Positions 24,953 to 36,530 of a DNA stretch of 36,843 nucleotides are shown here, piece after piece. Position numbers and translations under genes: made by a program. Every line of letters begins with the position of its first letter. Position 1 is the stretch's first letter. A model generated the notes under the pieces. That model saw nothing but the letters and a program-made list of their open reading frames with translations. It ran no database searches and had not been told where the DNA came from. The stretch is from Nanobdellota archaeon (GTDB lineage Archaea; Nanobdellota; Nanobdellia; Pacearchaeales; GW2011-AR1). The DNA lies in NCBI GenBank assembly GCA_018830245.1, contig JAHJSW010000001.1:1-36843 (forward strand). Reading direction: 5' to 3'.

Positions 24953-25056
24953 TAACTGATGGCTAGAGCTGTGCAAAAGCAAAGTTTTATATTAGGAAAA
25001 AAATTGTTTTTAAAATGAACCTCTGCGGACTGAAGTCCGCAGTTTCCAAATCATGT

Positions 25057-25497
25057 TCAACCAATGAGAGAGGGACCATGGTGTTCCTCTTGATGTAAAA
25101 CATAGGAGATAGTAAAGTCCAAATCAGTGAAACCAACTGAGGCTATGAACTTTCCTTTAGACCAAAGATGTCGTCGAGGATATCTTAATTTAGCTTTAGG
25201 GTGAAACCTAAAGAAAAGGTATGAGGAAGCTCCCTTAATAAGTTGGACAAGTTTGCTTGGATTAACACTAACCTTGGTTTTAACAACCATATGGACATGC
25301 TCAGGCATAACATTGATTGTTATTATCTTGATATTATGTTTGGTACAAGTTTGTCTTATACAAGCTTGGATTAAATTTTTATATTTAATCTTACTAAACA
25401 TCTTATACCTATACTTAGTACAAAACTGGATGTGCCAAAAAGCAATACCAACCGAGTGATTGTTTCGATCATAAAGTTTCATAAAACTTATGCTCAT
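25057..25497 (-). CDS. tnpA: IS200/IS605 family transposase TnpA (Y1 HUH)
   Basis: PEHVHMVV HUH motif, ISYVLHQ catalytic Tyr region; start at 25497 has GGAG at 6-nt spacing. Confidence 0.85.
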   Translation of the reverse strand: MSISFMKLYDRNNHSVGIAFWHIQFCTKYRYKMFSKIKYKNLIQACIRQTCTKHNIKIITINVMPEHVHMVVKTKVSVNPSKLVQLIKGASSYLFFRFHPKAKLRYPRRHLWSKGKFIASVGFTDLDFTISYVLHQEEHHGPSLIG

Positions 25498-25544
25498 GTT
25501 CAACTCCAGAATAAAGCTCACGCTAAATTCGTAATTTAGTTCAT

Positions 25545-25565
25545 AGAGCCTAGTATCTAGGCTCT
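25545..25565 (-). promoter_or_regulatory. tnpA leader hairpin (IS-A)
   Basis: AGAGCCTAG-ATA-CTAGGCTCT on the minus strand, 9-bp perfect stem. Confidence 0.6.
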
Positions 25566-25658
25566 TCATAATCATGAATCAAGAAATAAATAAATTTAGG
25601 AGAAGGAAGGGATGCAATTCCCCTACTAGCTAAAGCTAGTAGTATCCTTGCAACTTAA

Positions 25659-26219
25659 ATGAAAAAAATTACTGAAAAAAGAAAAAATGAGAAAAGAAAT
25701 CAGCTGATTCTAGGACTCATCTTAATAAGTGTTATGTTTTTGAGTGTTTTGGGATATGCTTTAAGGGAAGAAGAGGAGAGTGAGGAAGAAAAAGTTATTT
25801 ACAATAATTTTGAATTTGAAAAAAATAATGACTTCTGGTACTTAAGTGTAGAAAATTTTAATTTTGTTTTTAAGAATAATCCTTTTCAAATAGAAGAAAT
25901 TCCAGCTCAATTAAAAGGGCTGAATAATTACAAAGGAAAACCATTATATATTTATTCAGAAGAGGACGAAGCGAGTTCAGAAATCTATATAAATCTAAAC
26001 CAATTGATACAAAGAATGCAATTTGCTTGCCTAGAAAGTTTAGAAAATTGTGAGGAAAATTCTCCTACAAAAACCTGTGAAGATAATTTTATTATAATAA
26101 GAGTTAATAATAATACTCGAATTGTTCAGGAAGAAAATTGTGTATTTATACAAGGGAAAAAAGAAGAGATTGTAGGATTAGTTGATGAATTTTTATTTAA
26201 AATAATTGGAGTGAGATAA
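25659..26219 (+). CDS. Membrane-anchored hypothetical protein, paralog of the next gene
   Basis: N-terminal TM, extracytoplasmic domain, Cys pattern. Confidence 0.65.
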   Translation: MKKITEKRKNEKRNQLILGLILISVMFLSVLGYALREEEESEEEKVIYNNFEFEKNNDFWYLSVENFNFVFKNNPFQIEEIPAQLKGLNNYKGKPLYIYSEEDEASSEIYINLNQLIQRMQFACLESLENCEENSPTKTCEDNFIIIRVNNNTRIVQEENCVFIQGKKEEIVGLVDEFLFKIIGVR

Positions 26220-36122: not shown

Positions 36123-36530
36123 ATGGATTTGAACTCGCGGAAGCACAGTTTCGGGCAAAATGCCTTCCACTTTGTCTGGAAAATTAAATATGCTAAAGAC
36201 CCTTTCAAATTTTACGGGTTGAAGATGGATTGCGAGTTTTTCTTGAGGCAAGTTGCTTACAGACGAGGATTCAAAATTTACGAACTCCACGTCGCTGTTG
36301 ACCATGTCCACTTGTTTGTTGAACTTCCTCCAACTGTGAGTGTTAGCATGGCTCTTCAGTTGTTTAAGGGCTACTCTGCCTTTAAACTTTTCAAAAAACA
36401 TCCTTGGTTGAGAAACCACTTTAGAAATGGACACTTCTGGAGCCCTGGAAAATTCTTCCGTAGCGTCGGCAACACAACCACCGAAGCTGTCCAGCACTAC
36501 ATTACTTCTTCTCAACCGTGGGTTTCTTAG
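36123..36530 (+). CDS. tnpA: IS200/IS605 family transposase TnpA (Y1 HUH)
   Basis: VDHVHLFVELPP HUH motif; AVQHYITSSQ Tyr region. Confidence 0.88.
   Translation: MDLNSRKHSFGQNAFHFVWKIKYAKDPFKFYGLKMDCEFFLRQVAYRRGFKIYELHVAVDHVHLFVELPPTVSVSMALQLFKGYSAFKLFKKHPWLRNHFRNGHFWSPGKFFRSVGNTTTEAVQHYITSSQPWVS

Follow-up and report, generated by a model that had tools for sequence, protein, structure and literature searches.

How does a transposon come to lie exactly at the start codon of a gene, and does such an element recognize genes at all? The question is raised by a locus of a Nanobdellota archaeon, in a window of 36,843 nucleotides (the whole stretch of DNA that was analyzed; contig JAHJSW010000001.1). 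A preliminary description of this sequence had reported an insertion element at 25015..25658 and proposed that its target, TTCAT, is the antisense of an ATGAA start and that other copies might be biased to start codons.

The Element and Its Boundaries

Anatomically, the element is an unremarkable IS200-type transposon, a member of the IS200/IS605 family with a start-codon-like target (Table 1). Its sole gene, on the minus strand, encodes a Y1/HUH TnpA that matches PF01797 (E = 5.5e-26) and the solved structures of ISHp608 TnpA (2a6m; E = 3.4e-10) and ISDra2 TnpA, the HxH and catalytic-tyrosine regions being aligned. Because tnpA is present without tnpB (the gene that characterizes the IS605/IS1341 subgroup), the element is assigned to the IS200 type. 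Subterminal imperfect palindromes (single-strand hairpins) are found at both ends; terminal inverted repeats are absent, and a search of the window with a minimum length of 40 bases returned no long inverted repeat. A second, distantly related Y1 transposase gene is located at 36123..36530 on the plus strand; its product matches PF01797 and is 31% identical to the first.

On the minus strand, the left end opens after ...TTTTTTCAT as /TTAAGTTGCAAGG and the right end closes with ...GCAGAGGTTCAT/ (here and below, a slash marks a junction or point of insertion). The 644 bp (25015..25658) are inserted 3′ of TTTCAT, precisely at the ATGAAA start of the gene at 25659..26219. Insertion 3′ of a fixed tetranucleotide, TCAT, which is not duplicated, is seen in all 19 left flanks of the copies described below and in the empty sites. 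A second TCAT is interpreted as the site of right-end cleavage: in each of the six right ends that are known, the right hairpin is followed by TTCAT or GTCAT.

Table 1. Features of the element and its host locus (positions in the window)
Feature	Position	Strand	Remarks
Whole IS200-type element, 644 bp	25015..25658	-	Left end 25658, right end 25015; boundary from orthologous empty sites and other copies
Target TTCAT, retained in left flank	25659..25663	-	Antisense of the host gene's ATGAA start
Left-end hairpin GCAAGGATAC-stem-GGGGAATTGC	25614..25651	-	Putative guide bases AAGGA at 5′ foot; DNA folding z = -3.5
tnpA ORF, Y1/HUH single-strand transposase	25057..25575	-	Conserved part from ~25485-25497
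Right-end hairpin CTGCGGACTTCAGTCCGCAG	25023..25042	-	z = -3.7
Right cleavage site TTCAT	25015..25019	-	Creates a second ATGAA, on the promoter side
27-codon ORF, opened by junction ATG on promoter side	25015..25098	+	Judged incidental
Promoter of host gene, AAAG + TTTTATA	24981..24991	+	Now separated from the gene by the element
Host gene, 186 aa	25659..26219	+	Conserved in most genomes of the order; no Pfam match

The Empty Site and the Host Promoter

Orthologs of the host gene occur in 72 of 92 related genomes. Excision of 25015..25658 yields ...GTTTTATATTAGGAAAAAAATTGTTTTTAAA/ATGAAAAAAATT, and in this joined sequence (25014 to 25659) TTTATA begins 29 bases before the ATG. Twenty-nine element-free orthologs were read upstream: a TATA-like hexamer is present in 28, at a median start of -27, and 26 begin with ATGA. 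Because these orthologs have the same promoter-to-ATG layout, the element boundary is real; the coordinates and flanks first given for it were correct, and the exact insertion at the start codon is borne out by both the window sequence and the empty sites. The TATA-like box, which had been placed about 25 bp before the ATG, exists but starts slightly further upstream.

The TATA-to-ATG spacing indicates that the window gene is probably leaderless, as had been proposed. Since TTTATA stands at -29 in the excised window, the element has separated, with single-base precision, what is probably a leaderless promoter from the ATG that it served; the reading frame of the gene is spared, and its promoter lies on the far side of the element. 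The right end supplies an ATG on that side too, in agreement with the preliminary description, which had also pointed to the 27-codon ORF opened there. The ORF exists, but it has no conserved meaning, because the same junction ORF has six codons in three other copies (L004, L063, and L172).

Other Copies

Copies were sought, with no requirement on the flanks, by the left-end motif GCAAGGA-stem-GGGAATTGC (GCAAGGA being the hairpin foot, by which a copy is defined), and were accepted if a hairpin stem lay between the motif halves. Nineteen were accepted, of which ten genomes contributed 16 and viral contigs the remaining three. TCAT ends the left flank in all 19, TTCAT in 16, and TTTCAT in 14, and GTCAT closes all five further right ends that are known, where the window copy has TTCAT; thus TTCAT, first named as target and right-end word, holds for most left flanks, but the shared core is TCAT and most right ends read GTCAT.

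Among 18 scorable copies, with start codons taken from ORF calls rather than transcripts, 12 lie exactly at a start codon (the ORF being read away from the element), six lie between genes, and none interrupts a gene, so the recurrence anticipated for this family is found. The sample is small, several of the genomes are fragmented, and the G245 copies and some others are known by the left flank only; for the six copies in G245 no right end was found, the contigs breaking inside the element. All copies lie at different genes and were therefore counted as independent insertions. Besides the window gene, the start-codon positions include genes named from their N-terminal sequence as a methyltransferase (L004, in G007), transketolase C (L108, in G052), carbamate kinase (L110, in G245), two glycosyltransferases (L173 and L228), and methionyl-tRNA synthetase (L230); the others are L115 and L118 (both G245), L160, L172, and L063, where the ORF has just 43 codons. 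The intergenic copies are L064, L116, L117, L119, L140, and L229, and the wider context was viewed for five of them. No score was given to L154, in which a long ORF follows the ATG, because the contig breaks off within the element and this ORF is possibly the interior of an intein-bearing gene.

Individual copies show further features. The closest (L004) has a TnpA 87% identical to that of the window and is probably dead, since an in-frame TAG lies inside tnpA. Another (L064/L075), located just upstream of a gene's TATA-like box, is without the right end, its match to the window element breaking off at an internal CTCTCAT, which would fit either the use of this internal TCAT in place of the right end or a deletion with its endpoint at that position. 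At the end of an IMG/VR viral contig, L140 has the same type of left-end hairpin and a TTTTCAT target, and it apparently carries tnpB; a protein search of viral contigs returned no close TnpA. In L110, L115, and L118 the outward left end carries GGAGGATG, then codons in frame with the host ATG, so that a translational fusion with the host gene is possible. Three G245 contig ends (C1, C8, and C11; L174, L181, and L184) bear a different repeated element, whose terminus, ...GCGAGGTTCTTGAT, resembles an IS200/IS605 right end with a TTGAT site like that of ISDra2.

Stop and Start Codons at the Junctions

ATGA is found at both junctions because the right end also finishes in TCAT, and the consequence is seen most clearly between two transketolase genes of G052. 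The copy there (L108) is a miniature element (MITE): it lacks tnpA, measures about 150 bp, and combines the same left end with a right end of IS200 type. At the same point the element-free genome G061 has an uninterrupted tktN-tktC junction, GCTGAA/ATGAGAAAAG, with a 4-base ATGA overlap: the last codons upstream are ...GAG CTG AAA TGA, and their ATGA also opens the downstream gene, ATG AGA. In G052 the upstream reading frame closes with ...GAA TTA AAA TGA, making use of the right end that the element brings, and ATG AGA still opens the downstream one. The upstream TGA and the downstream ATG thus both survive, and the two proteins remain undamaged.

The Start-Codon Excess

Null frequencies were taken from sampled stretches, about 515 kb of host DNA, under a single ORF-calling rule; here called starts account for 5.4% of TCAT sites, gene interiors for 85%, and intergenic DNA for 9%. 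Twelve of 18 copies at starts gives P = 8e-12 against all TCAT sites and P = 1e-7 against TTTCAT sites. That the coincidence arose by chance, TTCAT being merely abundant, is extremely unlikely: six of the 18 scorable copies do lie off starts, but starts make up 5-12% of TCAT to TTTCAT sites versus 12/18 of the copies (P below 1e-6), and genome-wide TTCAT abundance as the source is refuted.

Starts account for a far larger share of the sites outside gene interiors: 37% for TCAT, 43% for TTCAT, and 50% for TTTCAT (P = 0.01, 0.03, and 0.11, respectively). Absence from gene interiors is general, since it holds also for 11 insertions that belong to other IS200 subfamilies of the same lineages, in none of which does an open frame of at least 60 codons cross the right boundary. 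These more distant TnpA subfamilies (30-55% identity) have different left ends, of AGAAATC type, and served only as a right-flank control, their targets not being fixable from sequence alone.

The target itself appears to extend beyond the point of insertion. In the empty site the bases after TCAT are TTTA in five of the six known right flanks, on which the extended target TCAT/TTTA rests (the window, L004, L063, L108, and L172; TTTT in L229), versus 1 of 11 in the other subfamilies (Fisher P = 0.005). This flank is not merely start-codon context, because just 38 of 232 start-codon TCAT sites have it (five of five, P = 1e-4). Its complement, TAAA/ATGA, occurs 80 times in the sampled DNA, 38 times at starts (47.5%; 73% of those outside genes), and with TCAT/TTTA as the null the start-codon excess is gone (P = 0.8). 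Because TAAA/ATGA lies so often at start codons, target sequence and purging suffice. The predicted bias is thus real relative to the genome-wide abundance of TCAT, TTCAT, and TTTCAT (P from about 1e-11 to 1e-7) but marginal or absent once gene interiors are set aside or TCAT/TTTA is used (P = 0.01 to 0.8), and the interpretation of the locus first offered is, as a whole, partly supported.

The same figures bear on a mechanism in which TnpA, which requires DNA in single-stranded form, is drawn to leaderless starts, the template strand being single-stranded in the open promoter complex and TCAT at the ATG being hit preferentially. The window gene is probably leaderless, so TTCAT would lie on the template strand at the predicted transcription start, and starts are modestly over-represented among non-interior TCAT sites (P = 0.01). 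We consider this mechanism very unlikely, however, as the longer targets abolish the excess (TTTCAT, P = 0.11; TCAT/TTTA, P = 0.8), the L108 site is within an operon, at a stop-start overlap rather than a promoter, and single-stranded DNA for transposition of the IS200/IS605 family is already provided by replication forks (PMC6006769).

Start-codon insertions might also be retained because they are useful, with expression of the downstream gene taken over by a promoter or translation signal that points outward from the left end. The targets include genes whose expression is required, that for methionyl-tRNA synthetase (L230) being an example, and the G245 left end reads outward as GGAGGATGGCAATT...GTA/ATGA, which contains an ATG in the same frame as the host start. 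Against this, the inserted left-end sequence of the window has no TATA-like box between -45 and -18 from the host ATG, and the outward ATG is not conserved, its frame stopping after five codons in the window; retention for usefulness is therefore unlikely.

Origin and Significance of the Pattern

Our analysis favors, with good confidence, an IS200-type single-strand transposon with the target TCAT (usually TTTCAT/TTTA on the cut strand), whose accumulation at start codons follows from target and selection, with no special recognition of genes. TnpA would insert the element, in the form of a single-stranded circle, 3′ of TCAT, much as IS608 inserts after TTAC and ISDra2 after TTGAT. In these AT-rich archaeal hosts the complement of the target, (TAAA)ATGA, is largely a word of gene boundaries, that is, a start codon, often overlapping or sitting just past the stop codon of the gene upstream. 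Insertions within genes would be removed by selection, leaving surviving copies to accumulate at start codons, although avoidance of gene interiors could reflect site preference rather than purging. With the left TCAT staying in place and the right end adding another, the downstream ORF keeps its ATG and an overlapping upstream gene its TGA.

A short, evolvable target word can thus work as a safe-landing address: in AT-rich DPANN genomes TCAT/TTTA is rare and falls mostly at gene boundaries, and the element's second TCAT re-creates whichever stop and start codons are hit. The target of IS608 can be re-addressed by altering its guide bases (PMC5934647), and it can therefore be asked whether IS200 elements evolve targets that spare the host. 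The window locus is a testable natural case of the uncoupling of a promoter from its gene in leaderless archaea; were the open promoter complex the attractant after all, the element would represent single-strand transposition targeted to transcription initiation, homing on leaderless start codons.

Comparison with Known Systems

In the open PMC text (a scope outside which ISfinder lies), no published description of a start-codon-targeting IS200/IS605 element was found. ISDra2 of Deinococcus radiodurans (IS200/IS605) resembles the window element in its Y1 TnpA, in insertion 3′ of a short word (TTGAT), and in a preference at the following base, which is strong in ISDra2 (TTGAT/G, about 90%; PMC5934647); in contrast, the window element is archaeal, lacks tnpB, and has a target, T(T)TCAT/TTTA, that coincides with start codons. 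With IS608 of Helicobacter pylori it shares TnpA homology, subterminal hairpins, and a target that is retained on the left without duplication. IS608 is cleaved at TTAC on the left and TCAA on the right, with guides AAAG and GAAT (PMC5934647), whereas both cleavage sites share TCAT here and the foot of the left-end hairpin is GCAAGGATAC. Finally, L108, at about 150 bp and without tnpA, is like the IS200-type MITEs that consist of two ends only, but differs in occupying an ATGA stop-start overlap with both codons preserved.
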